The position numbers and the translations under genes were made by a program. From Chromohalobacter sp. 11-W (GTDB lineage Bacteria; Pseudomonadota; Gammaproteobacteria; Pseudomonadales; Halomonadaceae), in NCBI RefSeq assembly GCF_029889905.1, contig NZ_JARANZ010000001.1:186001-250000 (forward strand): a stretch of DNA of 64,000 nucleotides, written 5' to 3'. The stretch's first letter is position 1. Every line of letters begins with the position of its first letter. The notes beneath the pieces are model-generated. The model was not told where the DNA came from. It did not search any database and saw nothing but the letters and a program-made list of their open reading frames with translations. Below are positions 32,039 to 51,888 of the stretch, one piece after another.

Positions 32039-32100
32039 GATAGGCTTTGCTTGACGCGCGCTCCCAGCCGCCTGCTAATAAAATTTCACAAGGAAACCTC

Positions 32101-34167
32101 ATGTCCCGCTCCCTCTCCCCATCGCAGCCGATCAACGTGTTGTCGTCCACGGCACGTCGCCTGGCCATGGCATCGCTGCTGCTGAGCTGCCCGCTAGCGG
32201 CGCAGGCACAAGACAACGCGCCCCAGACCGATACGGTGGTCGTGACCGCGACGGCACTCAAGGTGGCGATGCCGCTTGCCGAGACGCCGCGTTCGGTCTC
32301 CAGCGTGAGCCGAGAAGAACTCGAAGCGCGTAACGTCCAGAGCCTCGACGAGACGTTTCGCTACCGGGCCGGTGTACTGTCTGGCATGTATGGCTCGGAC
32401 AACAACACGGATTGGTTCAAGGTCAGGGGCTTTGATCAGGCAACCTACCAAGATGGCCTACGTATTTATCGAACTGGTTACTATCAGTGGTTGCCCGAGC
32501 CCTATGGTTTGGAGAGTGTCGATGTATTCAAAGGGCCAGCGTCGATCCTCTATGGCGAAGCGCCCTCGGGGGGGATCATCAATGCCGTGAGCAAGCGTCC
32601 CACCGCTGAGAAACGAGGTGAGATCGAGATCCAAGCCGGTAACCGCAATCATCGCCAGTTCGGGATCGATACATCAGGACCCGTAACCGAAAGCGGCGAT
32701 GTGCGCTACCGTTTCGTGGGACTTTACAAGGAACGTGATGGCGTTCTGGATGGCACTGATAATGAGCGGGTCTACTTCGCGCCAAGTCTCGAGTGGGATA
32801 TCTCCGATGACACTCAACTGACCGTGCTGGCCAGCTACCAGAAGGACGATGGAGTTCCCGAAAACCCCTTCAAGCTTGCCTATGGCACGGTGCAGGACAC
32901 GCCGTTCGGCAAGGTGGATCCGGAGACCAACTACGGGGCGTCTGACTACGACAAGGACGAGCATACCCAGACGGCCATTGGTTACGAATTCAAGCACCAA
33001 CTCGATGACACTTGGAAATTCGAGCAGGATCTCCGCTATAGCCATCTCGATCTAGACCTGCGTAGTACCTACATCTTGTCACGTGTTGATGAGCGCACAG
33101 CTACTCGTGGCCATCTGCAGCGTGATGGAGATATAGACAGCGTTACCATCGACAACCGAATGGTCGGTAAGTGGTACACCGATCGTACGGAAAATACCTT
33201 GCTAGTCGGGGTGGATTATCAAGATCTCAGTCTCGATGGCAAGGAATATGATAGTGATTTTAGTGGTTATGACACCGTCGGTATCTTCGAGCCTGACACG
33301 AGCATTACGCCGGTGCCTGATAGTCAATTGACCGGCAGACAGATCGATAAGCAACAACTTGGCGTTTATGTGCAGGACCAACTGCGCATTGATGACCGCT
33401 GGGTGCTGTTGGGCAGTGTCCGGCATGATAGCGCTGATGTGAAAAATGTTGATGGGAGCACGGATGTCACGGTCGACGAGACTCAGTCCGAGACATCTTT
33501 CTCCGGTGGTATCATGTACTTGGGTAATAACGGTGTGAGTCCTTATATCAGTTATACCGAATCATTCAGACCAAGTGCCAATACTAGCAATGCCAACGGC
33601 GCGATTTTCGAAGCGATTGAGGGCCGACAGTGGGAAGCGGGTGTCAAGTACGCGCCTTCGAGCTGGGATGGCTATGTGTCGGCCGCAGTGTTCGATATTA
33701 AAGAGTCCAACTCCTTTGCTACGACGCCTGCAGGATATCAAACGCAGGAAGGTGAGAAGACCTCTACCGGTTTTGAGTTAGAAGGTGTGGGCTATCTCAC
33801 GGATTCACTCAAGCTGACAGCCGCTTATACTTATACGGATGCACGTGATGAAGATGACAACCGTGCGGCGCTGATTCCACGCCATATGGCATCCACGTGG
33901 TTGGACTACGATTTCGAAGGGACCGCCTTGAATGGGCTGGCAGTCGGTGCCGGGATTCGCCATGTAGGAGAGTCGGTCGATGGCAGTATCACCGTGCCTG
34001 ACTACACCGTGGGAGACGCTATGGCGAGTTACGCTTTCAACAACCATTGGACCGCTCAGGTTAACGTCAACAACATCACCGACGAAGAGTATGTCGCTAG
34101 TTGTGATTTCTGGTGCTACTACGGCGAGTCGCGCAGTGTAATCGGCAGCCTCAAGTATCGTTGGTAA
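32101..34167 (+). CDS. TonB-dependent siderophore receptor, FhuA/FoxA type
   Basis: The start at 32101 follows AAGGA. 688 residues: a signal peptide ending near AAQAQD, a TonB-box-like DTVVVTAT, a plug domain (PRSVSSVSREELEARNVQSL; FKVRGFDQATYQDGLR; VFKGPASILYGEAPSGGIIN) and a beta-barrel ending in aromatic KYRW. The late VASCDFWCYYGESRSV disulfide-like motif is shared with ferrichrome/ferrioxamine receptors such as FhuA and FoxA. Together with the DFO-like biosynthesis genes, it is probably the ferric hydroxamate receptor. It is convergent with fhuB. Confidence 0.9.
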   Translation: MSRSLSPSQPINVLSSTARRLAMASLLLSCPLAAQAQDNAPQTDTVVVTATALKVAMPLAETPRSVSSVSREELEARNVQSLDETFRYRAGVLSGMYGSDNNTDWFKVRGFDQATYQDGLRIYRTGYYQWLPEPYGLESVDVFKGPASILYGEAPSGGIINAVSKRPTAEKRGEIEIQAGNRNHRQFGIDTSGPVTESGDVRYRFVGLYKERDGVLDGTDNERVYFAPSLEWDISDDTQLTVLASYQKDDGVPENPFKLAYGTVQDTPFGKVDPETNYGASDYDKDEHTQTAIGYEFKHQLDDTWKFEQDLRYSHLDLDLRSTYILSRVDERTATRGHLQRDGDIDSVTIDNRMVGKWYTDRTENTLLVGVDYQDLSLDGKEYDSDFSGYDTVGIFEPDTSITPVPDSQLTGRQIDKQQLGVYVQDQLRIDDRWVLLGSVRHDSADVKNVDGSTDVTVDETQSETSFSGGIMYLGNNGVSPYISYTESFRPSANTSNANGAIFEAIEGRQWEAGVKYAPSSWDGYVSAAVFDIKESNSFATTPAGYQTQEGEKTSTGFELEGVGYLTDSLKLTAAYTYTDARDEDDNRAALIPRHMASTWLDYDFEGTALNGLAVGAGIRHVGESVDGSITVPDYTVGDAMASYAFNNHWTAQVNVNNITDEEYVASCDFWCYYGESRSVIGSLKYRW

Positions 34168-34296: not shown

Positions 34297-36306
34297 CTAC
34301 AGCTTCCTCAGCGACCACATGAAGTAGGCGCCGCCGAGCAGCGAGGACATCAAGCCGGCGGGAATTTCCTGCGGGAACAGCCACTGACGCCCCAGCCAGT
34401 CGGCCAGCACCATCAAGAGCGCCCCCAGCAGGGCGGCGGCGAGCAGGTGTGCGCGTGCTCGTGACGCACCCAGCAGGCGTGCCATATGCGGTGCCAGCAG
34501 GCCGACGAAGGACAGTGGCCCGATCACCAATGTCGCGGCGGCGGTGAGCAGGGCGACGACGCCGAGCAAGGAAAGGCGCGCCCGGTTGACGTTGACCCCC
34601 AGCGCGCGGGCGCTGGAGTTGCCCATCGGCAATAGATCAAGCCAGCGGGCCAGGCATTGCAATGCCAGCGTCAACACCACGGCACTGGCGACCACCACGA
34701 TGGCCAGTGAAGTGTCGACGTAGTAGGTCGAGCCCGACATCCAGGCCAGAAGTTGCTGCGTGCGAGGGTCGCCGTTGGCGAGCACGATGCTGCGTAGCGG
34801 ATCGAATAGCGCGGTGATGGCGATGCCCGTCAACAGTACGCGCTCCGGCTGAAAACCGCTGCGACGGTTGATCAGTAGCAGGATGCCTAACGTCGCCAAC
34901 GCGCTCAGGGTGCCGGCGAGCAGTAGCATCGGCAGGCCTACGCCGGGTACGAACAGCACCACGCCGATCAGGCCGATGGCGGTACCACCGCTGATCCCCA
35001 CGACTTCCGGACTGGCCATGGGGTTGCCGGTCACGCGTTGTATCAAGGTCCCGGCCAAGGCCAACAGCGTGCCGGCGCCCGCCGCCGCTAGCGTGCGCGG
35101 CAAGCGCCATTCATGCGTGGCGTGCCACACCGACCACGAGGGCCAGGCCCAGCCCTCGCTATTCTGGCCGAGCAACAAGGAAGCCGCGAGCGCGATCGTG
35201 AGTGCCAGCCCCAAGGCCATCAGCAAGCGGCCGGGGTGGCGACGACGTGGCGCCGTCAGCATGGGCGCTGCATGCGGACGGTCGCCCCCCAGCTTGAGGC
35301 GCGGAATCAGCCATAACAGCAGTGGTGCCCCTAGGGCGGCGGTCGTCGCGCCGGTGGGAATCATCGTGGGTAGCGAGCCGGAAAAGCGCTGCAAAAGCTG
35401 ATCGGTCGTGGTCAGCAGCAAGGCGCCTAAAATCGGTGCCCACAGCAAGCGTTGGGGCAGCGTGCGCGCGCCCAATAAACGGACGATGGCCGGTGCCGCC
35501 AAGCCGATGAAGCCAATGATGCCGATCACGCTGACCACACAGGCGGTGATGAAAACCGCCAGGCCGAGGCTCATCAATCGCAGATGCTTGAGCGAGACTC
35601 CCAGACTACGGGCGTTGACGTCGTCGAGCTCAAGGATCGCCAGCGGGCGCAGCATGAGCCCGGCCAGCACCAGCGCGATGGCCAGACGCGGGAGCAGGTA
35701 GAGCACGCCGTCCCAGCTATTCTGCGAAAGCGAACCCGCACCCCACACCATCAGGCCTCGTAGCTCTTCCTGGTGAAAGAGTATTAGCGTCGTGCTGACC
35801 GCCCCAAGGTAGAGATTGACCACCAATCCGGCGAGTACGACCACCATGGGCGCGAGGCCGCGTCGCCATGCCAATGCGAATACCAGCCCCATGGCCAGAC
35901 TGCCGCCCACTACGGCCACCCATTCGCGGCCGAGGAGGAGCAGGCCAGGGGCGAACAGCGTGGCGAGCAACAAGGCAAGTTGTGCCCCGGTGGCGACGCC
36001 GAGGGTCGTGGGGGCGGCCAAGGGGTTGCGCAACACTTGCTGCATCAAGACCCCGGCGATCCCCAGAGCGCCACCGGCCAGCAGGGCGATGGTCCAGCGT
36101 GGCAGCCAGCTGTAGTGCGTCAGCAACTGGTCGATGTTGCCTTCATCGGGGGCGAACAGCGCCTGTGCCCACTGCGCGACGGGTAGTTGCGTCGCCAGCG
36201 AGAGACCGCTCAGGGCGAGACACACCAGCGCGAGCAGTGTGCAGAGGCGCGCGGGGGTCAGCACAAAATGCGGGAACGGCAAAGAACGGGAGATCCAGTC
36301 ACGCAT
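34297..36306 (-). CDS. fhuB: Ferric hydroxamate ABC transporter permease (two fused FecCD domains)
   Basis: 669 residues, the length of E. coli FhuB, with two homologous FecCD halves (about 1-340 and 345-669) of some ten helices each. Each half repeats the pattern [22 protein letters not shown] / [19 protein letters not shown] and a late [16 protein letters not shown] or [13 protein letters not shown] segment that meets the ATPase. It forms the inner-membrane channel with FhuC and FhuD. It overlaps the fhuD end by 8 bp. Confidence 0.93.
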
Positions 36307-37231
36307 CGGGCGCCTCGTGGGTCGGCGGTGTTGCGGCCGCGTCGATGAGCGCCTGGCTCAGATGGTCGGCGAAGCGCGCCGCCGAGGGCGCGCCACCGAA
36401 ACTCCATACCGGTGGCAGCGTGAGCACGTCGTCGCGACGCACGGAAGGTAAATGCTGCCACAGGGCGCTCGACGCGAGGCGCTCGTCGACGCCGACGGGC
36501 ATCGGCTCGATCACGACCAAGCGTGCATCATCGAGCTTGGCCAATGCTTCCAGGCCCACGGTGGCGAAGCCCCAGTAATTGGTGGCGTCCTGCCAAGCGT
36601 TTTCCAGCCCCAGGCGCTGCATGACAGCGTTATAGAGGCTATGTTCGCCGAACACGCGCACATGACGGTCGTCGATGAACTGCACGACGAGCAAGGGGCG
36701 GTCGCCGATCTCCCGGCTAGCGAGCGATTGCCGTAAAAGGGCGAGGTGGGCATCCAGCCAGGCGAGCAGCGTGTCTGCCTCCGCCTCGCGGTTGGCAATG
36801 GCGGCGATCTCGCGGGTGGCGTTTTTTAGTCGCGTCCACAGATCGCTACCCGGGGTATAGAGCGCGACGGTGTCAGTCGGGGCGATGCGTTCGAGGCTGG
36901 GGGCCAGGGTACTGAACATCGGCGAGAGCAAAATGCGGTCGGGATCGAGCTGGGCCAGCAGCTCACGGTTGGGCTGCGCGCGCAGGCCGATATCGGCCAC
37001 CTCGGCGGGCAGCGACGGGGCGCCCACCCATTCGCGGTAGGCATCCGTTTGCGCCACACCCACAGGCGTTACGCCGAGTGCCAGCAGCGTTTCGGCGATG
37101 GTCCAGTCAACGGTGGCGATACGTGGCGTATCGGCGGCGCTGGCGGTAAGCGGCCCGGCGAGCAGCACCAGCAACGCCAGGGCAAGGAGGTGAAAGCGGA
37201 GATTGTCTCCGCGCATCGACAATGGCGTCAC
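36299..37231 (-). CDS. fhuD: Ferric hydroxamate periplasmic binding protein
   Basis: The start is proposed at GTG 37231, with GGAG 5 bp upstream; the internal ATG at 37216 has no ribosome site, and longer starts overlap fhuC. 310 residues: a signal peptide near [23 protein letters not shown], then the two-lobed helical-backbone binding fold of FhuD/BtuF ([49 protein letters not shown]). It delivers iron-hydroxamate to FhuB. It begins 10 bp after the fhuC stop. Confidence 0.88.
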
Positions 37232-37241
37232 AGCGACTCCA

Positions 37242-38009
37242 TCAATGCAGTACGGCGATGGGGTGCTCGCCGCCGGGGTGGGACATGACCCGCATGGGGA
37301 TGCCGTAGATGGCTTCCAGGGTGGCATCGCACATCAAGTCGCGGGGCGCGCCTTGGGCCAGGACTTGCCCGCTGTGCAGCGCGATCAGGTGATCGCAGTA
37401 ACGTGCCGCCATGTTGACGTCGTGAAGGACGATGACGACGCCTAGCCCTAGCTCGCGACACAGTGACCGCACCAGGGCCAGCACCTCGACCTGATGCGCG
37501 ATGTCCAGTGCCGCCAGGGGTTCGTCCAGCAGCAGGAAGCGGCTTTCCTGGGCGAGCAGCATTGCCAGCCACACACGCTGGCGTTCGCCGCCGGAAAGCG
37601 TATCCACCAGGCGGTCGGCGAAGGCTTCGGTATGGGTCAGTGCGATGGCACGATCGATCTGCGTCTTGTCCTTGCCGTTGAGACGCCCCAGCAGCCCATG
37701 CCAGGGATAGCGCCCGAAGCCCACCAGCTCACGACCGGTCAGGTTGTCGGCGCTGGGCAGATGTTGGGGCAGATACGCCACGTGGCGGGCGAATTCACGC
37801 GTCCCCCAATCGGCGAGTGGACGCCGGTCGAGGCGAATATGACCGCGACTCGGCGCTTGCTGCTGGGCGAGCAGCTTGAGCAGGGTCGACTTGCCCGAGC
37901 CGTTGTGGCCGATCAGTCCATAGACCTTGCCTTCTTCGAAGGTGAGGTCGGTGGGGTGCAATAGGCACTGGCCGTTGACCTCGAAGCTGGCAGCGTCGAC
38001 GTTGAACAT
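37242..38009 (-). CDS. fhuC: Ferric hydroxamate ABC transporter ATPase
   Basis: 255 residues of the FecE/FhuC family: Walker A GHNGSGKST at about 34-42, Q-loop YLPQHLP, signature LSGGERQRVWLAMLLAQ and Walker B FLLLDEPLAALD, then the switch His in VIVLHDVNMAARYCD. It energises import through FhuB. It is the first gene of the order fhuC-fhuD-fhuB, behind a weak Fur-like sequence. Confidence 0.93.
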   Translation of the reverse strand: MFNVDAASFEVNGQCLLHPTDLTFEEGKVYGLIGHNGSGKSTLLKLLAQQQAPSRGHIRLDRRPLADWGTREFARHVAYLPQHLPSADNLTGRELVGFGRYPWHGLLGRLNGKDKTQIDRAIALTHTEAFADRLVDTLSGGERQRVWLAMLLAQESRFLLLDEPLAALDIAHQVEVLALVRSLCRELGLGVVIVLHDVNMAARYCDHLIALHSGQVLAQGAPRDLMCDATLEAIYGIPMRVMSHPGGEHPIAVLH

Positions 38010-38094: not shown

Positions 38095-38631
38095 TCAGTC
38101 GTCGACGGCTTGGTGGCAGGCCTGAACGGCTTGAGCGATGTAGCGACCGGCCATGCGCTCCGAGACGCCGAGGCGTGTGGCGATCTCGCGTTGCGGCACT
38201 CCCTCGAGACGATGCCAAAGCAACGCCTGACGAATGTGCTGCGGCTGGTCGTTCAGGCATTTTCGTACGCACGCCAGGCGCTGGGTCTGGCAGGCATCTG
38301 CCTCGGGGCAATGCCGTGCACAGGCGAGCCCGGTGGTGGTGTCTTCCAGGGGAATCGTCTCGGGCCGCGCCCTGGCCTGGCGCTGATGATCGATCAGCAG
38401 GTTGCGGGCAATGCGGAACAGGTAGGCGCGAGGATTGGCGAGCGGCTGAGTGAGTCTCGCGCGCTGCAGGCGCAGATACACCTCCTGGCAGAGGTCGGCC
38501 GCCAGCTCCGGCGTATCCAGCTTGCCGGCCAGATAGCCGACAAGCTCCCGGGAATGCTCCATGAACAGTCTATCGAGTGTATCGACCATATGTCGGGTCC
38601 GTCCGTGGGTAGCGTCGCGTGATGGCGTCAT
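38095..38631 (-). CDS. FecI-like ECF sigma factor
   Basis: Up to 178 residues. The start at 38631 overlaps the dfoC stop by 4 bp (ATGA); an internal ATG at 38589 (MVDTLDRLF) is the alternative and gives 164 residues. Region 2 reads LFMEHSRELVGYLAGKL and LCQEVYLRLQ with NPRAYLFRIARNLLIDH, and region 4 reads REIATRLGVSERMAGRYIAQA, the FecI iron-sigma pattern. A Cys-rich linker (CARHCPEADAC) sits between them. No FecR anti-sigma is adjacent, so it may work like an iron-starvation sigma (PvdS type). Confidence 0.88.
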   Translation of the reverse strand: MTPSRDATHGRTRHMVDTLDRLFMEHSRELVGYLAGKLDTPELAADLCQEVYLRLQRARLTQPLANPRAYLFRIARNLLIDHQRQARARPETIPLEDTTTGLACARHCPEADACQTQRLACVRKCLNDQPQHIRQALLWHRLEGVPQREIATRLGVSERMAGRYIAQAVQACHQAVDD

Positions 38632-41156
38632 GCCGTCTCGGCGTGGCGCCGAGCGTCGTCCGTGTCATGCGCGGGTGGTCGCCAGGGGGCGATGGGGTTG
38701 TCCAGCTCGCCGACCAGCTGCAGATTTTTGGACGGATCGGCAAGGTCGATCATCTGCCGGTTGTTGCCCAGTTGCAGGCGGTTGAGACAGGAGCGCGCAA
38801 AGCTTGGCGCGAATAGGTCGTAACGCGCGAACTTATCAGCGAATTCGGGATGGCGGCGCTGGTAATCGAGAATGCAATCGGCGACGCAGTGCCAGAAATC
38901 GGATTCGGTGAAATCGCCCCGTGCCTCGCCATGCTCGACCATGATCGGGGCCAGGTAGCGGAAAAAGCAGTCGAAGGTATCGGTGAACAGCGACAGCACC
39001 TTGAGGTGTTCCGGCACGGCCACGGCCAGGCGTTTCACGCCTTCGGGAAGCGCGGCGTCGGGGTCCATGATCGCGCTTTCCTCGGCGATGTCCTTCATGA
39101 TCGCGCGCACCGGCACGTGCGCATCGAGCTGCAGAATCACGTTCTCGCCGTGGGGCATGAAGACCAGGTCATGGGCGTAGAAGCAGTGCAGGATCGGCGT
39201 CAGGTAGGCGGTGAGATAGCGCCGTAGCCAGTCGCGGGGCGTGAGCCCCGAGGCCTCGACAAGCGCCGGGAGGAGTGCCTGACCGTCCTTATCGCGATGC
39301 AGCAGCGCGGCCATGGTCATCAGGCGCTGACCGGGCGGCAGATGATTGAGCGGACTTTCGCGCCACAGGCAGGCGAGCATCTTCTTGTGAGGGCTGTCAC
39401 GGGCGACGGCATCCTCGAAATAGGCGTTGCGATACCCGATGGCGGCTTCCTCGCGCAGCAGGGTGAATCCGTTGTCGGCCAGGAAGGCGTCGCCGTCGAG
39501 CAGTGTCTTGAGCCATTCATTGATGGCCGGCGTCGCCTGCATGTAGTAAGGCGAAAGGCCGCGCATGAAGCCCATGTTGAGGATCGAGAGCGCCGTCTTC
39601 ACGTACCGGCGCCGGGGCTGCGAGGTGTTGAACATCGTACGTATCGATTGCTGGGCGCGGTAGCGGTCGTCGCCGGTGCCCAGGTACACGATACGCCGGT
39701 TGGCGATCTCGCTGGCAAAGCCGATCGCCAGCTTGTTGTGCCATTGCCAGGGATGCAGCGGCATGAGCAGGTAGGCTTGAGGGTCCAGTCCCCATGCCTG
39801 CAAGTGACGGTGGAAGCGTGCCACGGTGTCGCGGCCCAGCTCCTGTTCGAGCAGTTCGGTGTAGGACAGATCGCTCACGCTGCTGAATTCGGCACACTGC
39901 GTATGCACGGCCAGCCACACCAGATGGATGTCGGCGCCGACCTCGGGGGCGTAGGCATGGTAGTCGTCGGCGTCGAACCCGATGCGTCCGTTGTTGGCGA
40001 CGAAGCTCGGGTGGCCCTCGGTCATGGCGCTTTCGATGGTCTGGAAGTCGCCATGTGCCAGCTCGGCCGCCGTGAGTCGCTGATGCGCCTGCTTGTAGGC
40101 ACTGCCGGACAAGGTGCTGCCGATCTCCTCCAGATACACGGGAAGCGTCTCGTCGTCGAGGCCGAGCACGGCGCTGAACTCGATGATGAAACGCTGCGCA
40201 TCCAGCTCGGCGGGCTCGTCGTCGACGATCTTCGCGAGGGAGCCGGGGGCGATCCACCAGTGATCGAGCTGCATGCGACGTGCCCGGAAGCGGTAATGGC
40301 CGTTCGCACCGGGAATGGGCAAGGTGTAGTCGCCCCAATCGCCTTGCCGGTCGAGCCGGCGGGGCGCCACGAGGCGTTCGTGGGCGAATTCGGCGATGGC
40401 CTTGCGGATCAACTGACGGCTGGCCCGGGCCCAGCGCTCGGGGTCGAGATGGGCGAGGCGCGCGTCGATTGCCGGAGGCGTCTCCATGGCGGTGGTCTCC
40501 TGTTCCATGGATGGCAGTGGTTCTCTGGCTGGCAGACTTTCGCGGGAGAGCGCTGCCAGCGCCTGGTGATAGGCGGCGTGGAATTGGGCGCGGGTGCAGA
40601 ACGCCAGATGCGCGGTTTTCTCCGGCAGACGCACTTGGCGGTCGTAGCGAAAGCCCACCCGGCGGTTGAGCGGATGGATACGTTCGTTGCGGACATCGGG
40701 TTCGACGACCACGCGGTCTGTGGCGGGATCGCTGAACATCAGCGCCATCACGCTGCTGAGCACGCCCCAGGTGAAGCGGGGGATGCGCGTTTCCGGTGGT
40801 GCCACCAGCACGTGCATGCCCCGGTCGCCGGGGCGCACGTCGTAATGCGCGCCGATGGGATCGTGTTGAGGCTGGTAGCACTCGACCAGAAAGGCGGGGC
40901 GGCCTTCGAAAAAGCCCAGATAGCCCTGGCTGTGCGGACTTTCGTGCAGCCCTCTATAGAATGCCGCCACCTGCTCGCGGCTGTCGCCGCGCATGCCCCA
41001 AAAGCGAGCGTAGTCGCGGCTGACCCAGTCATGAATCAGGGCGCTGTCCGCATCGCAGTGGATGGCGCGCAGATGAAAGCGGCCGAGCCCGGGAATGGCG
41101 TCGGTGTAGGTATTGCCTGGATCGTACAGCGGGCTGAGAAAGGCGGATGTCGTCAT
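38628..41156 (-). CDS. dfoC: Fused acyltransferase / NIS siderophore synthetase (DfoC/BibC-like)
   Basis: 842 residues with two domains. Residues about 20-200 form an AlcB/IucB/DesC-type N-acyltransferase (HSQGYLGFFEGRPAFLVECYQ; NRRVGFRYDRQVRLPEKTA). Residues about 235-835 form an IucA/IucC/DesD synthetase, with EGHPSFVANNGRIGFDADDY near 372, LMPLHPWQWHNKL near 457, and NVILQLDAHVP near 675. A Pro/Glu-rich linker joins them. The fusion matches DfoC of Erwinia/Pantoea and BibC, which acylate N-hydroxycadaverine and then oligomerise or cyclise it. It overlaps the hydroxylase gene by 4 bp. Confidence 0.92.
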   Translation of the reverse strand: MTTSAFLSPLYDPGNTYTDAIPGLGRFHLRAIHCDADSALIHDWVSRDYARFWGMRGDSREQVAAFYRGLHESPHSQGYLGFFEGRPAFLVECYQPQHDPIGAHYDVRPGDRGMHVLVAPPETRIPRFTWGVLSSVMALMFSDPATDRVVVEPDVRNERIHPLNRRVGFRYDRQVRLPEKTAHLAFCTRAQFHAAYHQALAALSRESLPAREPLPSMEQETTAMETPPAIDARLAHLDPERWARASRQLIRKAIAEFAHERLVAPRRLDRQGDWGDYTLPIPGANGHYRFRARRMQLDHWWIAPGSLAKIVDDEPAELDAQRFIIEFSAVLGLDDETLPVYLEEIGSTLSGSAYKQAHQRLTAAELAHGDFQTIESAMTEGHPSFVANNGRIGFDADDYHAYAPEVGADIHLVWLAVHTQCAEFSSVSDLSYTELLEQELGRDTVARFHRHLQAWGLDPQAYLLMPLHPWQWHNKLAIGFASEIANRRIVYLGTGDDRYRAQQSIRTMFNTSQPRRRYVKTALSILNMGFMRGLSPYYMQATPAINEWLKTLLDGDAFLADNGFTLLREEAAIGYRNAYFEDAVARDSPHKKMLACLWRESPLNHLPPGQRLMTMAALLHRDKDGQALLPALVEASGLTPRDWLRRYLTAYLTPILHCFYAHDLVFMPHGENVILQLDAHVPVRAIMKDIAEESAIMDPDAALPEGVKRLAVAVPEHLKVLSLFTDTFDCFFRYLAPIMVEHGEARGDFTESDFWHCVADCILDYQRRHPEFADKFARYDLFAPSFARSCLNRLQLGNNRQMIDLADPSKNLQLVGELDNPIAPWRPPAHDTDDARRHAETA

Positions 41157-42532
41157 TTCGGCACCTCACAGGTCAACGGGACTGACTCGTCGGCGGTTGG
41201 CTGGCGATGGGCCGGCCGGGGCGCGGGGCGGAAGACGGCGTCGTCGGGCGTGCCGAACGTCTGGAAGGCGATGCGACGCTCGATGGGATAATGCTCGATT
41301 CCCGTCAACTCGCGGATGATGCAGGCGTTGCGATAGCAGGCCATGCCCAGGTCCGGCGCCGCCAAGCCGTGCGTGTGTCGCTCGGCGTTCTGCACGAAGA
41401 GACGCGAGCGGTCATGATCGATGCTGTAGAAGCGGTCCACCGCGAAACGCCCGGCGGTGTCGCGGCGAATGTGCTCGTGGATGGGCGACAGGAAGCCTGG
41501 CTCCCGATAGCGATAGCCGGTGGCCATCACCAGCGCCGGGGTCGTATGGCGGTAGGGCCGTCGTTGTTCGGTCTGGTAAAGGTCGAGTTCGAACGTGGCG
41601 CGTGCCGCGTCGTAGTGACAGTCCTGCAGCTCGGCGTTGGTCAGCAGGTGCGTGTCGACGGGGCCATCGAGCCGCTTGGCATACAGCAGGTCGTAGATCT
41701 CGTTGACCAGCGCCAGATCGATGCCCTTGTAGAGGTTCGCCTGTTGCGACATCAAGTCATCGCGGGTGGCCTGCGGCAGGGCGTGGAAGTAGTCGATGTA
41801 CTCCGGCGAGGTCATTTCCAGCGTCAGCTTGCCGTATTCCAGCGGAAAGAAGCGCGGCGAGCGGGTGATCCAGTTCAGGGTGTAAGCGTAGCGGTCGATG
41901 TCCTGCAGCAGGTCCTTGTAGATCTCCGCGGCGCTCTGGCCGCTGCCCACCAGCGTGATCGCCGGCTGCTGCTGGAGCCAGGCCTTGTGCGCGAGGTAGT
42001 CGGCGCTGTGGATGATCCGCTCGGCATGCGGGCGGCAGCACGCGGGCAGGTCGGGCTGCGTGCCGGTGCCGAGTACCAGCTTGCGGGCCCGATGGCTCGT
42101 CGCGGTATCGCGGGCGGTATCCACGCAGTGCACGACGTAGCAATCGTCGTCGGCATCGAAGTCGACGCGCTGCACCTCGTGATGGAAGCGGATCGACGTG
42201 AGCTGATCGATGGCCCACTGGCAGTAATGGTTGTATTCGCGTCGCAACGGGAAGAAGTTCTCGCGAATGTAGAAGGCGTAGAGCTTGTCCTGGCGCTTGA
42301 GGTAGTTGAGGAAACTGAACCGGCTGGTGGGGTCGGCCAGGGTGACCAGGTCGGCCAGGAAGGGCGTCTGCAGGGTGGCGTCTTCCAGCAGCATGCCGGG
42401 GTGCCAGTCGAAGCCGGCCTTGCGCTCCAGAAAAAGGCCGTTGACGTCCTCGAGCGGGTCCGTCAGGCAGGCCAGGCCCAGGTTGAAAGGGCCCAGTCCG
42501 ATGGCGATAAAGTCGTGAATCGGCGTTGGCAT
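41153..42532 (-). CDS. dfoA: Diamine/lysine N-hydroxylase (DfoA/DesB/IucD family)
   Basis: The start is placed at ATG 42532 (MPTPIHDF), with GAGAG 5 bp upstream; 42544 is the alternative. 459 residues of the flavin-dependent N-hydroxylating monooxygenase family: FAD motif GLGPFNLGLACL (about 12-23), FADPTSRFSFLNYL-like substrate region, NADPH motif GSGQSAAEIYKDLL near 199, and the C-terminal ATGYRYREP and HGLAAPDLG. It converts cadaverine or a related diamine to the N-hydroxy form. It lies between dfoJ and dfoC. Confidence 0.92.
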   Translation of the reverse strand: MPTPIHDFIAIGLGPFNLGLACLTDPLEDVNGLFLERKAGFDWHPGMLLEDATLQTPFLADLVTLADPTSRFSFLNYLKRQDKLYAFYIRENFFPLRREYNHYCQWAIDQLTSIRFHHEVQRVDFDADDDCYVVHCVDTARDTATSHRARKLVLGTGTQPDLPACCRPHAERIIHSADYLAHKAWLQQQPAITLVGSGQSAAEIYKDLLQDIDRYAYTLNWITRSPRFFPLEYGKLTLEMTSPEYIDYFHALPQATRDDLMSQQANLYKGIDLALVNEIYDLLYAKRLDGPVDTHLLTNAELQDCHYDAARATFELDLYQTEQRRPYRHTTPALVMATGYRYREPGFLSPIHEHIRRDTAGRFAVDRFYSIDHDRSRLFVQNAERHTHGLAAPDLGMACYRNACIIRELTGIEHYPIERRIAFQTFGTPDDAVFRPAPRPAHRQPTADESVPLTCEVPK

Positions 42533-42560
42533 GGTGGCTCTCATCGTTGAAGACCGGGGA

Positions 42561-44150
42561 TCAGGAGAAGGCGGCGGCGAGGTCATGTCGCCTGGGTGGC
42601 GCGGCATCGTCGCGCGTCAGGAAGTCGGCACCATGGGCCTGAAGGCGCTCCACGATCGTGGCCAGATCGTCGATGCCGGTCTCCGGGTTGAGCAGCGTGA
42701 ACTTGAGGTATCGGCGCCCCCGGACACGCGTCGCCGCGACGACTGCCTCGCCGTGGCGCGAGAGGGCCTGTCGGATATGGGCGTTGAGCGCATCCAGGCT
42801 GGCGTCGTCCAGGTCGTGGCCACGCGGCCGGTAGCGAAATACCAGCGTGGTGAGCTGTGGTGCCGTGATCACCTCGATGTCCGGCGCGGTCCGCAGCAGG
42901 TCGTACGTCTCGCGGGTCAGCGCGATGACGCGATCGAATAACTCGCCCAGGGCATCCGGCCCCAGCAGGCGCAAGGTCATCCAGAGCTTCAGGGCGTCGA
43001 GGCGGCGCGTGGTCTGCAGGCTCTTGTCGACCAGGTCCGGCGGCGCGTCGTCGTGCCGGCCGGCAGGATTCAGGTAATCGGCGTGATGGGTGACATAGCC
43101 GAGCCTCTGGCGTTCGGCGACCATGAAGGCGCTGCAACTGACCGGCTGAAAGAAGGACTTGTGGTAGTCGACGCTGACCGAATCCGCCTGTTCGATACCG
43201 GCCAGCCAGTGGCGGTGCCGTGGCGATGTCAGCAGGCCGCCGCCGTACGCGGCATCGATGTGCAGCCACACCCCATGCTGGCGGCAGAGCGCGGCGATAT
43301 CCGCCAGCGGGTCGATGCTGCCGAAATCCGTGGTGCCGGCCGTGGCGACCACGGCCATCGGAATCGTTCCTGCTTGCCGGCTCTCGGCCAGGGCGCGTGC
43401 CAGCGCCCCGGTGTCCATGCGGTAGCGGTCGTCGCAGGGAATCGGCACCACGGCACGGTGTCCCAGCCCCAGCAACGCGGCGGCCTTTTGCAGACTGACG
43501 TGGCTCGCCTCGGAGGCGAAGATGCGCAACCTGGCCGCGTCGGCGGGCAGGCCGTGTTCGCGATTCTGATGCCCGTCGAGGGCTGCGCAGCGATGATCGC
43601 GCGCGATCAACAGGGCCATCAGGTTGGACTGGGTGCCGCCGCTGGTGAAGACACCGTCCGCGTCATCGCCCAGGCCGATACGGCGGACCGTCCAGTCGAT
43701 CAGCGCCTGCTCGATGAAGGTGCCGCCGGCGCTCTGGTCCCAGGTCTCGACGGCGGTGTTGATCGGTGTGGCGATCGCTTCGGCGAGGATCGACGCCAAA
43801 GTGATCGGACAGTTGAGGTGCGCGACATAACGCGGATGATGAAAATACACCGCATCGTCGAGATACAGCCGTTCGACTTCCGCCAGCACGGCGTCGAGGT
43901 CGTCGAGCCGATGGTTCAGATCCAGCCCCTCGAAGCGTCGCTGCATCTCGCTGGGCAGAATTCCCGAGAACGGCTGGCCGGTCTCGGTCAACTTGCGTTG
44001 CACGAGTTCGATGCAGCGCTGCATGCCCTGACGATAGACATCGGCATTGCGCGGCATGAACAGGGCATGGTTCGCGTCTTCGCTCATCGCCCGAGATGCG
44101 AGCGGCCGGGAAGAAAGCGGCGCCATCCGAATGGCAGCGTTTTGACTCAT
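42561..44150 (-). CDS. dfoJ: PLP-dependent amino acid decarboxylase for siderophore synthesis (DfoJ/DesA-like)
   Basis: 529 residues of the group II decarboxylase family: SGGTQSNLMALL near 170, SEASHVSLQKAA, HIDAAYGGGLL with the PLP Asp, and the PLP lysine in SVDYHKSFFQPVSC near 330. DesA/DfoJ makes cadaverine from lysine for hydroxamate siderophores; a diaminobutyrate or ornithine substrate cannot be excluded. Later in-frame ATGs at 44126 and 44087 are possible starts. First gene of the dfoJ-dfoA-dfoC-sigma operon, 70 bp below a very good Fur box. Confidence 0.9.
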   Translation of the reverse strand: MSQNAAIRMAPLSSRPLASRAMSEDANHALFMPRNADVYRQGMQRCIELVQRKLTETGQPFSGILPSEMQRRFEGLDLNHRLDDLDAVLAEVERLYLDDAVYFHHPRYVAHLNCPITLASILAEAIATPINTAVETWDQSAGGTFIEQALIDWTVRRIGLGDDADGVFTSGGTQSNLMALLIARDHRCAALDGHQNREHGLPADAARLRIFASEASHVSLQKAAALLGLGHRAVVPIPCDDRYRMDTGALARALAESRQAGTIPMAVVATAGTTDFGSIDPLADIAALCRQHGVWLHIDAAYGGGLLTSPRHRHWLAGIEQADSVSVDYHKSFFQPVSCSAFMVAERQRLGYVTHHADYLNPAGRHDDAPPDLVDKSLQTTRRLDALKLWMTLRLLGPDALGELFDRVIALTRETYDLLRTAPDIEVITAPQLTTLVFRYRPRGHDLDDASLDALNAHIRQALSRHGEAVVAATRVRGRRYLKFTLLNPETGIDDLATIVERLQAHGADFLTRDDAAPPRRHDLAAAFS

Positions 44151-44220
44151 GGCATCACCTATGTCCTGGTGGCGTAAGAGGTCGCAACGGACATCATGAG
44201 GTTGCGACTTTCTTCCTTAT

Positions 44221-44239
44221 GTTAATGATAATCGTTAAC
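44221..44239. promoter_or_regulatory. Fur box upstream of dfoJ
   Basis: GTTAATGATAATCGTTAAC is a near-perfect palindrome matching the 19-bp Fur consensus at 16 of 19 positions. It lies about 70 bp before the dfoJ start and should switch the siderophore operon off when iron is plentiful. Confidence 0.85.
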
Positions 44240-44328
44240 AAATCAGTGTTGCCTACAGGAAGACGATGCCGGCCCCGGTTTCTGAACCGAGCAGACGCAT
44301 TTTTTTGAGTGATGCTTGGCGTGCCATG

Positions 44329-44385: not shown

Positions 44386-46479
44386 TTAGTAAGCGTGGGA
44401 CCAGCGCAATGTGTAGGTGCGCCCACGGCCCTTGAGGTCCCACAGCGACTGGGCGCCATAGGCTTCATAGAAGACGGCGGCACGCTGGCCCCAGATCGTC
44501 ACGTAGTCTTCATCGAGCAGGTTCTCGATGCCCAGGCTGAAAGTGCCGAAGGCCGTGTCCTGACTGGCCGTGGCGTCGACCGTGGTGAAGCCGTCGAGCT
44601 CGTTGCCCGAGGCATCGTCGAGATCGAAAGCGCGGTTAACTTGCAAGCGGGCGCGGGTATCGATGTCCGACCATTCGCCGTAGAGGGTCGCCTGGGGCAT
44701 GCTGGCGTCGGTGACGCTGCTATCCACCCATTCGCCGCCGACCTTTTCCTCGGAGGTCACGGCGTTGAACGTCGAACCGAGCGTCCAGTGTTGACCGAAG
44801 AAGCGCTCGACCTTGCCTTCCACTCCGTAGGTTCTGACGTCCTTGTCGATGGTGGTGACGCCGATCTCGAGATTACCGTCGTTGCTGTAGAGGTAATCGA
44901 TCGCTTTATCCGACCAGCTATAGTAGGCGGCAACCTGCGTCTGCCAGTTGCCACCGTTGAAGCGCCATCCAGTCTCGAGCTGTTGAGTCTTGATGCCGTC
45001 CACAGGATTGTCCGAAATGTCGAAGCTGACTCCACGATAGGCTTTGGCGATATCGGGAATCTCGAAGCCCTGAGTATACGAAAGCCAGGTCTGGTGGCCG
45101 TTGTGGAAGTCGTAAAGGGCCTTGAGATTGAACAGCGAGACATCGTAGCTGTTGGAGCCGCCGTCGTTGCCACCCTGCGGTTCGACCTCGACATCGGTTT
45201 GCTCGAAGCGCGCGCCGCCGGAGAGCTGCAAGTTCGGAGTGAGCTGATAGTCCGCCTGGGCGAATACGGCCAGGGTATCGGCCTGGAACGACGGGTAATA
45301 CGGATCGAGAACGCTGGTCTGGTCGAGTTCCAGACCGCCGTCGGAAGGTGCCAACGTATAACGCTTGGAATCGAACTCCTCGCGGGAGAGATCGAGCCCA
45401 TAGGTCACGCTCAAGGGATCGCTGAGCTGCGCGGTGAACGCCGCCTTGGCGCCGGTCAAGTCGGTGTTCTGCTCCGAGACGGTAAAGGCGCTTCCCCCGG
45501 GGAATGGATTGAAGACCGAGGACTCCTCGCGGTGATAGGCCTGAACGTAGAATTCCTGGCCCAACAGCGCGCGGTGATGGTAGTTAGCATTGAGATACAG
45601 CCGCTCGGTCTCGGGATCGACATCCGAGTCGTAGCCGTCGCGGACCTCGCTCCCCTGGATCTTGTCCGAATACGTCGCGCCGCTATCGTAATTCGGGTAA
45701 TAAAGCCCTTTGTTGCCCGCGTAGGCCGAATCGTAATACTGCGCAGTGACATCGAGGCGTTCATTCTCGCTGATCTTCACGGCGACATTGCCCATGAGAT
45801 CGACGGAACGGTTTTCCTGCAGGCCTGACTGGGCGATGTCCGGCTTGATGATCTCGCCATCGGCATCGTAGAAGGAGCCGTTCTCCTGTACCGCGATGGC
45901 CAGGCGCCCCTGAATGCGTTCGTTGCCGCCCGAGATGGATTGCGCCGCACGTTTGGTGAGATCGTCCGAATCGTTGAAGCCACTGGTCACGCCCAGCTCG
46001 CTCTCGAAGTTGAGACCTTGCTCGCCTTTCTTGGTGACGATGTTGATGATGCCCCCGGTAGCGCCGCCGCCATACAGACTGCTCGCGCCGGACAGGACCT
46101 CGATGCGCGCGATATTGAACGGGTCGATGGAATCGAACTGCCGCGACAGGCTGCGTGAGCTATTCAGCGACACGCCATTGATCATCACCAGCGCATCGCG
46201 CCCTCGGAAGTTCTGTGCATAGTTGGTGCGATTGGTGCTCGAACCGAAGTCGAAGCCAGGAATCAGCCGCCCCAAGGCCGATTTCAAGGACTGCCCTGCG
46301 TTTAATTGCTGCTGGAGCTGGGCTTCATCCACCACCCATGCCGCGCCGGGGATCTGGCTGATCTCCGTGGGCGTACGCGCGCCGACCACCACCATGGTGT
46401 CTTGCGTCTCCTGTGCTTGGGCATGCAGCGCCGAGCCACCGGCCGCCGCGATGAGGCCGAAGGTAAGCGTCTTTTTCAT
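44386..46479 (-). CDS. TonB-dependent receptor, IutA (ferric aerobactin) type
   Basis: The start at 46479 (MKKTLTFGLIAAAGG) follows AAGGGGAT. 697 residues: a signal peptide ending near AQAQET, a TonB-box-like DTMVVVGART, and a plug domain with TNYAQNFRGRDALVMINGVS and RQFDSIDPFNIARIEVLSGA, then SSLYGGGATGGIINIVTKKG, closely like IutA. The beta-barrel ends in RWSHAY. It probably imports a ferric hydroxamate; whether it serves the endogenous siderophore or a foreign one is unknown. Own Fur box upstream and own terminator. Confidence 0.9.
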   Translation of the reverse strand: MKKTLTFGLIAAAGGSALHAQAQETQDTMVVVGARTPTEISQIPGAAWVVDEAQLQQQLNAGQSLKSALGRLIPGFDFGSSTNRTNYAQNFRGRDALVMINGVSLNSSRSLSRQFDSIDPFNIARIEVLSGASSLYGGGATGGIINIVTKKGEQGLNFESELGVTSGFNDSDDLTKRAAQSISGGNERIQGRLAIAVQENGSFYDADGEIIKPDIAQSGLQENRSVDLMGNVAVKISENERLDVTAQYYDSAYAGNKGLYYPNYDSGATYSDKIQGSEVRDGYDSDVDPETERLYLNANYHHRALLGQEFYVQAYHREESSVFNPFPGGSAFTVSEQNTDLTGAKAAFTAQLSDPLSVTYGLDLSREEFDSKRYTLAPSDGGLELDQTSVLDPYYPSFQADTLAVFAQADYQLTPNLQLSGGARFEQTDVEVEPQGGNDGGSNSYDVSLFNLKALYDFHNGHQTWLSYTQGFEIPDIAKAYRGVSFDISDNPVDGIKTQQLETGWRFNGGNWQTQVAAYYSWSDKAIDYLYSNDGNLEIGVTTIDKDVRTYGVEGKVERFFGQHWTLGSTFNAVTSEEKVGGEWVDSSVTDASMPQATLYGEWSDIDTRARLQVNRAFDLDDASGNELDGFTTVDATASQDTAFGTFSLGIENLLDEDYVTIWGQRAAVFYEAYGAQSLWDLKGRGRTYTLRWSHAY

Positions 46480-46547
46480 TAGTATCCCCTTGGTGATGAG
46501 AGTTGTTCTCAAGCAGGGCTTAGGGTACAGAGCAGGGATAAAAACTC

Positions 46548-46688: not shown

Positions 46689-47429
46689 TTACTGGACTGA
46701 GTTCGAAGGAATGGCCACGAGGCTCAACAAGCGTGAGGCTGTCTCGGTATATTGACCTTCGAGCGTCACGCCCGACGCCCAGCCGTCGCAGAGGGTACGA
46801 CGCAATTGCAGCGTGATGTGCCCTGTAACGGGATGCCAGTCGATGAGTGCGGCATCCTGAAAGTAAAAGCGCACACCGATCAAGGGATACAACGCCTTGA
46901 AGAGGCTCTCCTTGCTGGAAAATGCCAGGGTGGTGAACAATGCCTGGGCGTCATGATCGAGCCTTTTACACCAGGCGTGTTCTTCTGGGGTGAGAATCTG
47001 TGGCGCCAAGCGCTCGGCGCGCGCGGGGCTCAATAGCGTTTCCGCATCGAGCCCTAGGCCTTGCCATGCATCACGCGGCGCCGCCATAGCGGCGGCGAAC
47101 CCGCCGCTATGGGTGATGCTGCCTAGTGTGCCCTCGGGCCAACAAGGCGCACGATCAGCCGCAATTCCCGGCACCTCGACACGCCCTGTGGCGGCGTACA
47201 GGGCCTCGCGGGCACAAAGGCGCCCCGCCAGAAACTCGCCCCGGCGCTTGGCGATCGCCGTGGCCAGCCGTGCCGGTAATTCGATGCCTCGGGTGGCAAA
47301 GTCCGCTGCGCACACCGAGGGCGCCGTGAAATTCACCCCGCGCCAGGCGACGCCCGCTAGCGGGCGCGGCCAAGGCCACTGAGTTTGCCAGTCCTGACAA
47401 CCGGCGGGGAGATCGCACACCTCGGGCAT
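46689..47429 (-). CDS. entD: 4'-phosphopantetheinyl transferase (EntD/Sfp type)
   Basis: 246 residues with EntD-type motifs: KRRGEFLAGRLCAREAL near 60, GSITHSGGFAAA near 102, GLDAETL with a Mg-binding Asp, and FSSKESLFKALYPLIG near 168. It transfers phosphopantetheine from CoA to carrier proteins of NRPS, PKS or fatty acid systems. The dfo-type siderophore route uses no carrier protein, so its place next to the receptor is notable. It is 3 bp from the YceI-like gene upstream and 177 bp from the Fur-regulated receptor. Confidence 0.9.
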   Translation of the reverse strand: MPEVCDLPAGCQDWQTQWPWPRPLAGVAWRGVNFTAPSVCAADFATRGIELPARLATAIAKRRGEFLAGRLCAREALYAATGRVEVPGIAADRAPCWPEGTLGSITHSGGFAAAMAAPRDAWQGLGLDAETLLSPARAERLAPQILTPEEHAWCKRLDHDAQALFTTLAFSSKESLFKALYPLIGVRFYFQDAALIDWHPVTGHITLQLRRTLCDGWASGVTLEGQYTETASRLLSLVAIPSNSVQ

Positions 47430-47432: not shown

Positions 47433-48041
47433 TTAGCGGTCCACCAATACAGCATCCAGCTCGACCGGTACCTCGTCATCGATCTGCTGATAGCCGAGTA
47501 GCCCGAGTACGGTACGTGCGGTCTGATTCTGCATGATCGCGCGGCCATCCAGCGACACCGATTCGGCATTGCGCACGTGAATCTCGTGTTCACTGTCCCG
47601 CGTGAAGCGCACCTTCAGTGGCTCCTGCTGCGACGCATCGCCATCCTTCACGCTGAGCATCAGCGTCTCGGTACGGGACTCGCCCACGGGTAGATCGTCA
47701 AGCACTTGGGGATCGAGTTGCGTGACCACCGTGGTCAGCTCGGTATCCGACAGGCTCGACATCCACGGCGGCAGCTCACCCAACTGATCGAGGATGTCGG
47801 TCTGGTTGAGCCGCACCGGCAAGCGTAGCGTGCCATCCTCCGCGATATGCCCGTTCATGCGCTTCAGTGCGTGATGATGCGCCACCTCTGAGCCGGACGA
47901 GGTGATCTCGGTGATCGTCGCCTCGACGCGAGATTTCTCCGGATCCAACTGCCAATCCGCCTGCGCCACGCAAGGCAGCGCGACCACGCCCAATGCCGCC
48001 GCCCAAGCAACACGACGCACCATTCGCTTCATTTGATACAT
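47433..48041 (-). CDS. YceI-like exported protein
   Basis: The start at 48041 (MYQMKRMVRR) has GGAGGG 7 bp upstream; the ATG at 48056 has no ribosome site. 202 residues: a signal peptide ending near CVAQADW, then a YceI-type lipocalin-like beta barrel (WQLDPEKSRVEATITEI, where YceI proteins open WxLDPxHS; AEDGTLRLPVRLNQTDI; VSLDGRAIMQNQTARTVLG). YceI proteins bind long isoprenoids; the ligand here is unknown. The next gene entD starts 3 bp after its stop. Confidence 0.85.
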   Translation of the reverse strand: MYQMKRMVRRVAWAAALGVVALPCVAQADWQLDPEKSRVEATITEITSSGSEVAHHHALKRMNGHIAEDGTLRLPVRLNQTDILDQLGELPPWMSSLSDTELTTVVTQLDPQVLDDLPVGESRTETLMLSVKDGDASQQEPLKVRFTRDSEHEIHVRNAESVSLDGRAIMQNQTARTVLGLLGYQQIDDEVPVELDAVLVDR

Positions 48042-48136
48042 CACCAAACCCTCCATGGGATGGAATCACACTCCAAGGGCCAATCACCCCTAGTCTCGTT
48101 TATCGGCATCCGCTATGATACTGCCCCGTTGCGTCA

Positions 48137-48213
<77 letters not shown>

Positions 48214-48292
48214 TACATATCAAGCGTTTATATCAAATAACGGGCGCATGGTTTTCCCCTAGGGGGCTGCATGGGGGGCTGTTGGTACAACA

Positions 48293-48487
48293 TCATCGTG
48301 CAGATTCCATCTTCTCCAATGCCTGCTCGAACACTACCTTCCTCCATCCCCGCACGCCCGGAGAGTACTCGGTTGGCGGCGGAAAAGTCTTGTATTTTGC
48401 CCACCAGTTGTAAAGCGTCTTGCGGCTAACGCCAATGATGCGCGCGCCTTCCCCGATCCGAATGATCTGGTTCTCACTGTATTTCAT
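48293..48487 (-). CDS. AlpA-like phage regulatory protein
   Basis: The start is placed at ATG 48487, which has GGAG 7 bp upstream (48493 is too close to it). 64 residues with an AlpA/MerR-type helix-turn-helix: NQIIRIGEGARIIGVSRKTLYNWWAKYKTFPPP. AlpA-type proteins activate excision in satellite prophages. The preceding broken HTH gene ends across this start (ATGA overlap), so the two were once coupled. It lies 80 bp from the tRNA. Confidence 0.75.
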   Translation of the reverse strand: MKYSENQIIRIGEGARIIGVSRKTLYNWWAKYKTFPPPTEYSPGVRGWRKVVFEQALEKMESAR

Positions 48488-48489
48488 GC

Positions 48490-48809
48490 TCATTCTCCGT
48501 AGTACCTGGCGCCGCCGGCGTCGTAATCGTCACGCTGACGCTTGCACTTTTGCTCCTAGCGCATCTGACGATGGCGCTCGAAGATCTCGCGGATCCCTTG
48601 TGGTCCTGATGACTCGCCGATAGTGCCGAGGGCGTTGTCGCGCTGCATGCGCAGCAGCGGGATCAGGCCCTCTCCACTGCGCTCTGCTCAAAGCGAAGTG
48701 AGGTGCCGAGTTGCAGGTAACCAATTCGATGCTTGTTTCCGTACACCCAGCCCACACTCATGCCTAAGCGCTGGGCGACCTGTTCGGGTCCGAGTAGCCC
48801 ATCTGGCAT
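48490..48809 (-). pseudogene. HTH control/excisionase-like gene disrupted by a frameshift and an amber codon
   Basis: From ATG 48809, preceded by a perfect AGGAGG, the frame encodes LGPEQVAQRLGMSVGWVYGN, then LQLGTSLRFEQSAVE, an HTH-17-like domain, and hits a stop at 48663. In another frame a good coding stretch continues (IPLLRMQRDNALGTIGES, then GPQGIREIFERHRQMR), is broken by TAG at 48556-48558, and resumes (EQKCKRQRDDYDAGGARYYGE), ending exactly over the AlpA start. Joining the pieces gives a protein of about 105 residues. A short intact 48-residue protein is the alternative reading. Confidence 0.6.
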
Positions 48810-48909
48810 ATCAGCCTCCTGCCTTCTTTTTTCCGCAGCGTTAGCTTGATGAATTATGGATTGTGATAAAGTCGGTACTCTTCTTTTAATGTTCATGGTT
48901 ACGAGTGCA

Positions 48910-50518: not shown

Positions 50519-50619
50519 GAAGGCTGATCCCGTCGCCTAAGGCGTGGCCAGCCGCTTCACGGTTGGGCTGGGCTTCGCTCGTCGACTTTGCAGAAACATT
50601 TTAATAATCCGGAGGTAGA

Positions 50620-51473: not shown

Positions 51474-51500
51474 AGGTTGCCTGTGCCGCTCATGCGGCGT

Positions 51501-51851: not shown

Positions 51852-51888
51852 GGTGGCGTCCACATCAAGAGGCGAGGAGCGACTCAGT

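Follow-up and report, generated by a model that had tools for sequence, protein, structure and literature searches.

A FecI-family sigma factor without FecR as the predicted driver of its own desferrioxamine-type operon in Chromohalobacter

The dfoJAC-type operon and its terminal sigma gene

The subject of this study is a 64,000-nt stretch of Chromohalobacter sp. 11-W (the window; contig NZ_JARANZ010000001.1, positions 186,001-250,000, assembly GCF_029889905.1; all coordinates are those of the window) and, within it, a siderophore operon that ends in a sigma factor gene. On the minus strand, a TonB-dependent receptor gene is followed after a gap of 235 bp by genes for a decarboxylase (J), an N-hydroxylase (A) and a fused GNAT/non-ribosomal peptide synthetase (NRPS)-independent siderophore (NIS) synthetase (C), then by the gene of an extracytoplasmic function (ECF) sigma factor and by fhuC, fhuD and fhuB (Table 1). 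J, A and C are closely spaced, with overlaps of 47 bp (J/A) and 4 bp (A/C), as in a dfoJAC-type operon. Their domains and those of the sigma factor exceed the Pfam cut-offs; the latter has both sigma2 and sigma4 and matched FecI models under their cut-off. Domains and strand thus confirmed the succession described in an earlier note on this DNA, a desferrioxamine (DFO)-type operon closing with a FecI-type sigma gene. On the evidence set out below, this sigma factor, which lacks a FecR partner, probably recognizes one promoter, that of dfoJ, and drives dfoJ-dfoA-dfoC together with its own gene in a feedback loop under Fur.

The distribution of the two genes was determined in 201 genomes of the family Halomonadaceae. 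The synthetase (E <= 1e-100) was present in 39 of them. Sigma homologues at E <= 0.001 occurred in 153 of the 201, with a gap between 39 genomes at E <= 2.5e-35 and the next one at 1.3e-24; when the cut for the close sigma factor was placed in this gap, after the results had been seen, the 39 genomes were identical to those with the synthetase (lists compared by eye). In every one of them the sigma gene lies downstream of the synthetase gene on the same strand, 50-371 bp separating the synthetase stop from the conserved core. Within the genus sample, three of ten genomes carry both genes. Classical dfo operons are not known to have a terminal sigma gene, and measured against them the locus is indeed not the standard arrangement, as had been remarked; in this family, though, it is the rule (39/39 operon genomes among 201).

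A FecR protein paired with the sigma factor from a distance was searched for and rejected, since neither FecR (PF04773) nor DUF4880 (PF16220) gave a match in the whole 3.66-Mb genome, and the description of the sigma factor as FecI-like but FecR-less was therefore borne out. Of the 39 operon genomes, 35 lack FecR, and the other four encode it away from the operon. That the sigma factor is held by an anti-sigma of another family, encoded elsewhere, is unlikely. Most ECF sigma factors do have an anti-sigma, and the genome search was confined to PF04773 and PF16220, but all 44 FecR-linked relatives found use FecR, and the 35 FecR-less named loci gave no FecR match.

The promoter and the Fur box upstream of dfoJ

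Upstream of dfoJ, and absent from the earlier note, lies a perfect copy of a FecI-type promoter, two elements separated by a spacer of fixed length (N12), at which the sigma factor encoded in this operon is predicted to act. The motif was read by eye off loci of FecR-linked sister sigma factors, downstream of FecR. Its presence at up to one mismatch in 32/32 of these relatives, where it precedes the large frame after FecR (in 30 cases similar to a receptor), is not independent, as the same loci gave the motif; 13 more distant loci (L168-L180) had no copy at up to three mismatches. In the window, the dfoJ promoter is the sole match at up to three mismatches (0.03 expected), and in the genome the sole match at up to two, with three matches at three mismatches against one for the control. 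A looser core at one mismatch matched the genome 19 times, compared to 18 for the reversed pattern, the dfoJ copy alone being exact.

An independent test was provided by the family. The motif is perfect before dfoJ in the three Chromohalobacter genomes, and 27 of the 39 operon genomes have it at the operon at up to two mismatches, while any match was found in only 14 of the 162 others. At up to four mismatches, 36 of 39 scanned regions contained it compared to one of 60 mononucleotide-shuffled regions, the N12 spacing being fixed. A further copy (G057), outside its scanned region, was found in the genome-wide scan and raises the count to 37/39 operons; the remaining two genomes (G140, G188) carry GGTTCAG and CGTC at the same spacing, degenerate copies with five mismatches (by eye). 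The motif stands before J in 24 genomes and before receptor-J-A-C in 15, namely nine Salinicola and six Cobetia by genus code; other Salinicola carry it before J. Two Salinicola share a second, imperfect copy with two mismatches (G055:C136:71517-71546 and G077:C7:516287-516316).

The earlier note had suggested that the sigma factor may switch on receptor or exporter units and had proposed a search for a common -35/-10 motif. A shared motif unlike that of sigma-70 does exist, but it stands before the biosynthetic operon. Sigma-dependent promoters before the two receptor genes, the gene of the ATP-binding cassette (ABC) exporter candidate and fhuC were rejected, as these upstream regions in the window had no match at up to three mismatches and the looser core only reached control level. 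A main role in activating receptor, exporter and fhu genes elsewhere is accordingly very unlikely. It would agree with FecI and AsbI, which act in this way (PMC9249621, PMC10253897), with the position of the motif before the receptor gene of the sister sigmas and with its site before receptor-J-A-C in 15/39 family genomes; in this genome, however, the motif occurs only before dfoJ. The sigma factor thus most likely drives its own operon and not separate receptor, exporter or fhu promoters.

The Fur box reported in front of the operon was confirmed. All Fur searches, in the window and in the gaps treated below, were plain match counts against one 19-bp consensus. Ten Markov resamplings of the window contained no site with 15 or more matches and ten others none with 16 or more, so that the box exceeds these controls; two further Chromohalobacter genomes keep it with no more than two changes. 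Among the relatives, 25 of 36 synthetase-sigma gaps of at least 80 bp contain a Fur-box-like site (at least 13/19), which in 24 of them beats all 40 shuffles of the same gap, and 11 such gaps are without one. In most genera the sigma gene may hence be transcribed from a second, Fur-controlled start. The three Chromohalobacter genomes, by contrast, have only a short gap without a Fur-like site, and their sigma gene therefore depends on the operon.

Start codon and domains of the sigma factor

According to the earlier note, the sigma gene overlaps the synthetase stop by 4 bp. This depends on the first ATG (38631), which would give 178 aa, and is probably wrong, an artefact of start-codon choice, because the likelier start, ATG 38589, leaves a gap of 38 bp. 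In 28 of 30 tabulated loci (of 39) an ATG lies four to six residues before an LDxLF-like motif, the exceptions being L028 and L030; this conserved position corresponds to ATG 38589, which has GGACGGA in front. An in-frame stop rules out a longer sigma factor in three members of the Modicisalibacter group, Halomonas sp. McH1-25 and two genomes under the name Modicisalibacter. Three congeners differ by a single base in the disputed 42 bp, which encode a 14-residue N-terminal extension, and their divergence thus leaves the start codon undecided.

The protein consists of sigma2 (approximately residues 2-74), a linker (75-94) and sigma4 (95-163). A PDB sequence search returned 11 distant ECF sigma factors. 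The AlphaFold model shows two confident domains (mean predicted local distance difference test score, pLDDT, 88) joined by a weak linker (residues 81-90 at 59), and no distances can be read from it. A functionless leftover of a lost cell-surface-signalling system would fit the missing FecR and the missing signalling domain in the receptors tested. Such a vestige is extremely improbable since the sigma gene has no internal stop in any of the 39 genomes, the DNA-binding helix is nearly invariant in the family alignment and the promoter is kept with a fixed N12.

Cysteines in the linker

The sigma factor contains cysteines at positions 34, 90, 94, 100, 107, 111 and 158. Its relatives without FecR mostly have a cysteine-rich linker between sigma2 and sigma4, with at least three cysteines (3-6) in 30 of the 39 genomes and 0-1 in nine. 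By contrast, none of the 44 FecR-linked rows has three or more (none in 40, one in three, two in one). Position by position, Cys34 in sigma2 occurs in 41/43 FecR-less tree rows compared to 8/44 FecR-linked ones, Cys90 in 34/43 compared to 1/44 and Cys94 in 33/43 compared to 1/44, while Cys158 at the end of region 4.2 is common to both (43/43 and 42/44). In the AlphaFold model, Cys100, Cys107 and Cys111 are situated on the first sigma4 helix, and the linker is flexible there. A cysteine-rich C-terminal tail of the OrbS or CorE type was not found, only Cys158 lying near the end. Five of six Cobetia (L028, L030, L054, L055 and L056, genus code g6; not L053) have extra C-terminal cysteines instead, at the place where OrbS has its sensor.

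By analogy with the C-terminal cysteines of OrbS, the linker cysteines, perhaps with Cys34, may bind iron or another metal and act as a post-translational brake replacing FecR. This is a tentative proposal and not included in the confidence placed in the promoter and the feedback loop. Slightly better placed, at just under even chances, is the alternative that the same sigma factor and promoter are governed by Fur alone, as for an iron-starvation sigma factor, with the linker cysteines neutral or structural; it competes with the sensor only. The combination of a Fur box with the absence of FecR favours it, and so do the nine of 39 relatives with at most one linker cysteine, whose protein manages without the cluster, and AsbI of Aeromonas salmonicida, which is probably Fur-controlled without an adjacent anti-sigma (PMC10253897). 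It does not explain why the linker contains 7.6% cysteine in FecR-less rows compared to 0.2% in the 44 FecR-linked rows and L175, with nearly equal contents in the remainder of the protein (2.3 and 1.7%), nor why a cluster of three to six recurs in most genera.

FecR-linked sister sigma factors

The sister sigma factors were found in Alcanivorax/Alloalcanivorax (eight loci, 51-59% identity) and Pseudomonas (24 loci, 46-49%). Each is followed by FecR and, in 30/32 by similarity, by a receptor gene. FecR was detected in the named loci by tblastn with a single FecR query, and L175, which gave no match, was left out of the FecR labels. In seven of the eight Alcanivorax/Alloalcanivorax loci (L105, L106, L107, L111, L112, L117 and L119, sigma from position 5001), sigma factor and FecR are encoded in a single frame, which runs for 381-390 codons counted from the start of the match, while L145 is unfused. 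A quick tree based on 120 columns, with the linker columns excluded, near-identical rows included and 37 of 79 inner branches open, united the sigma factors of Halomonadaceae, Alcanivorax and Pseudomonas in one starred set of 75 rows, on which the FecR label changes two to three times. Since more distant relatives are FecR-linked, the direction of change appears to be a loss and not a gain of FecR.

Receptors from two Alcanivorax loci share 55-58% identity with those of five DFO clusters of Halomonas, Vreelandella and Salinicola, whereas the two Pseudomonas receptors compared reach only 22-29% identity to these proteins. FoxA, the ferrioxamine receptor, was the best NCBIfam model, under its cut-off, for the receptors of L106 (Alcanivorax), L131 (Halomonas) and L036 (Salinicola). 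The signalling domain STN (PF07660) was present in all three FecR-linked receptors tested and in none of seven FecR-less ones, including both window receptors, which are thus not of the FecA signalling type. The window receptors are only 35% and 23-24% identical to the Alcanivorax receptor, so that the receptor seems to have been exchanged in Chromohalobacter. On the simplest reading, a ferrioxamine surface-signalling module would have shed its sensing components after the bacterium had begun to produce this siderophore on its own.

Gene identities and surroundings

The NCBIfam equivalog models for J, A and C scored under their cut-offs (386 bits for J with the RhbB model NF052646, cut-off 900), and the product can therefore not be read from a model. 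A histamine N-hydroxylase reading of A and a diaminobutyrate (DABA) decarboxylase reading of J were set aside, their NCBIfam scores being far under cut-off. J is 64% identical to the homologue of Halomonas gemina (L216), a producer of desferrioxamine E (DFOE), and the identities to A, C and the sigma factor of this species (L131) are 67%, 62% and 52%. The product would be of the DFO type, probably DFOE. The nearest named locus is that of C. moromii, whose sigma factor is 91% identical.

Between the sigma gene and fhuC, one weak terminator-like site was detected; across the region such sites are at chance level. A probable exporter gene of the major facilitator superfamily (MFS) lies between A and C in several genera (L048, L102-L104, L113, L118, L131 and others), while Chromohalobacter has none there. 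In several Halomonas (L113, L115, L118, L120, L131 and others, approximately 5540-7300), the sigma gene is followed by a gene probably encoding a siderophore-iron reductase, a label that rests on position and on PMC10291192, and by an AraC-type gene, a second possible regulator of the cluster. Two synthetase matches contain one in-frame TGA (G123:C154:128682-131111 and G059:C2:6161-8560) beside a neighbouring sigma gene that is open in both; the synthetase of G059 (L049) was called as two open frames. A phosphopantetheinyl transferase gene adjoins the operon in the window, yet a NIS operon needs no carrier protein. The unknown 207-aa protein encoded next to it has a homologue (53%) beside J in L049. 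The part of the window from 48000 to 64000 has a G+C content of 0.47-0.62, mostly below 0.57, compared to approximately 0.6 to its left, and may be recently acquired.

Table 1. Features of the sigma-DFO locus and its neighbourhood in the window
Feature	Position	Strand	Remarks
FecI-type promoter GGTTCAGAAA-N12-TCGTCTTC	44259-44288	-	before dfoJ; 0 mismatches; GGTTCAGAAA at 44288-44279, TCGTCTTC at 44266-44259
Fur box GTTAATGATAATCGTTAAC	44221-44239		16/19 against the consensus; about 20 bp downstream of -10-like element
DfoJ-like pyridoxal-dependent decarboxylase	42561-44150	-	PF00282, 235 bits
DfoA-like N-hydroxylase	41153-42607	-	PF13434, 417 bits
DfoC-like fused synthetase	38628-41156	-	GNAT (PF13523), IucA/IucC (PF04183), FhuF (PF06276)
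FecI-type ECF sigma factor	38095-38589	-	PF04542 and PF08281; 164 aa from likely start
fhuC-like ATPase	37242-38009	-	85 bp after sigma gene; possible read-through gene
fhuD-like binding protein	36299-37327	-	profile matches
fhuB-like permease	34297-36306	-	profile matches
RhtA-like TonB-dependent receptor	44386-46512	-	no STN; RhtA model 578 bits, under cut-off of 1100
Second TonB-dependent siderophore receptor	32047-34167	+	no STN; no sigma-type promoter upstream
ABC transporter, exporter candidate	30298-31971	+	no sigma-type promoter upstream
Phosphopantetheinyl transferase	46689-47429	-	adjoins NIS operon
Unknown 207-aa protein	47433-48056	-	adjoins NIS operon

Discussion

The genes, the Fur box, the promoter motif, the absence of FecR, the conservation throughout the family and the homology to FecR-linked sigma factors can be read from the DNA; that the sigma factor uses the motif and closes a feedback loop is what we infer from them. 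In iron-rich cells, Fur-Fe(II) bound to the box just downstream of the dfoJ promoter would shut the loop. At low iron Fur would be released and leakage would yield a little sigma factor, which would direct RNA polymerase to the dfoJ promoter and so increase both the siderophore enzymes and its own amount, possibly with read-through from the operon into fhuCDB. The positive loop would be closed in Chromohalobacter, where the sigma gene has no Fur-controlled promoter of its own. On the return of iron, Fur, and perhaps the linker cysteines as well, would end the loop.

Several points weigh against this interpretation or parts of it. The link between the sigma factor and the motif is a prediction from sequence comparison. 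The scan of the region for sigma-70 promoters gave results at chance level, and none was recognized that could start the loop. The anti-sigma search covered FecR and DUF4880; anti-sigmas of other families were not searched for. Four of the 27 operon genomes have five additional motif matches elsewhere at up to two mismatches, so that the restriction to one promoter is firm for the genome of the window but not for every relative. As to the sensor, the linker is of low confidence in the AlphaFold model and the four cysteine positions are not fixed. The Modicisalibacter group (three genomes) and Cobetia (six) have at most one linker cysteine and also no FecR, and the cluster is thus not needed for life without FecR. 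The loss of FecR and the gain of cysteines fall on only one to three branches; the association is therefore not statistically independent, and with one or two pairs in an independent-pairs test significance is unreachable. Finally, RNA-seq of C. salexigens showed that high salt induced both csal1052, a FecI orthologue, and the adjacent siderophore cluster (csal1053-1056), although siderophore output was lower under this condition (PMC6104435). The gene order agrees with that of the window locus, of which csal1052-csal1056 is probably the counterpart.

The nearest chemically proven relative is the DFOE cluster of H. gemina ATCH28, a strain shown by nuclear magnetic resonance (NMR) to make DFOE and in whose cluster a sigma gene is listed (PMC10291192). 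It shares the J, A, C and sigma genes with the window but has in addition an MFS transporter, a siderophore-iron reductase, an AraC-type regulator and a FoxA-like receptor. Moreover, the H. gemina sigma gene has its own Fur-box-like site (L025), unlike that of the window. Among the matches listed in the open-licence PMC literature, only this article and probably PMC6104435 bear on the sigma factor, the promoter or the linker cysteines.

With FecI the sigma factor of the window shares the family and the predicted restriction to one promoter, FecI being described as controlling a single promoter (PMC9249621), and in Alcanivorax its sisters are accompanied by FecR and by a FoxA-like receptor that bears STN, as in FecI-FecR-FecA. 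The window, however, has neither FecR nor a receptor with STN, and the predicted target is the biosynthetic operon that holds the sigma gene. The seven fused Alcanivorax/Alloalcanivorax frames resemble the sigma/anti-sigma fusion IutY of Pseudomonas putida (PMC5411451), from which the window protein differs by the absence of an anti-sigma part. AsbI of A. salmonicida is also an ECF sigma factor in a siderophore cluster with a Fur box and no anti-sigma gene nearby, but it drives transport and not synthesis genes and reportedly has no control over its own expression (PMC10253897). OrbS of Burkholderia cenocepacia (ECF243), an iron-starvation ECF sigma factor, is inhibited by Fe(II) directly through a cysteine cluster, without an anti-sigma (PMC9023288). 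Like OrbS, the window sigma factor would be Fur-controlled, free of an anti-sigma, in the service of siderophore synthesis and equipped with clustered cysteines. In OrbS these lie in the C-terminal tail (C196-X2-C-X3-C-X5-C) and not, as here, in the sigma2-sigma4 linker and at the start of sigma4; furthermore, the gene of OrbS has a separate sigma-70 promoter, and OrbS serves an NRPS cluster, that of ornibactin (PMC8908255).

It is conceivable, though rather doubtful in its entirety, that a ferrioxamine-sensing signalling sigma factor has become a self-contained iron switch. FecR and the signalling domain of the receptor would have been lost, the promoter would have shifted from a place before the receptor gene to one before the biosynthetic operon that carries the sigma gene, and the cysteine cluster of the linker, with Cys34, would have assumed the role of the anti-sigma by binding iron and blocking the binding of RNA polymerase. 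The sister lineages, which keep sigma factor, anti-sigma and signalling receptor, and the family Halomonadaceae, where the sensing parts are missing from the locus and the sigma gene ends the operon that its product appears to activate, form a natural before-and-after series. It offers a direct way to test by what means a sigma factor can do without its anti-sigma, whether an ECF sigma factor may carry its iron sensor elsewhere than in the tail used by OrbS and whether halophiles base their desferrioxamine production on positive feedback at one promoter.

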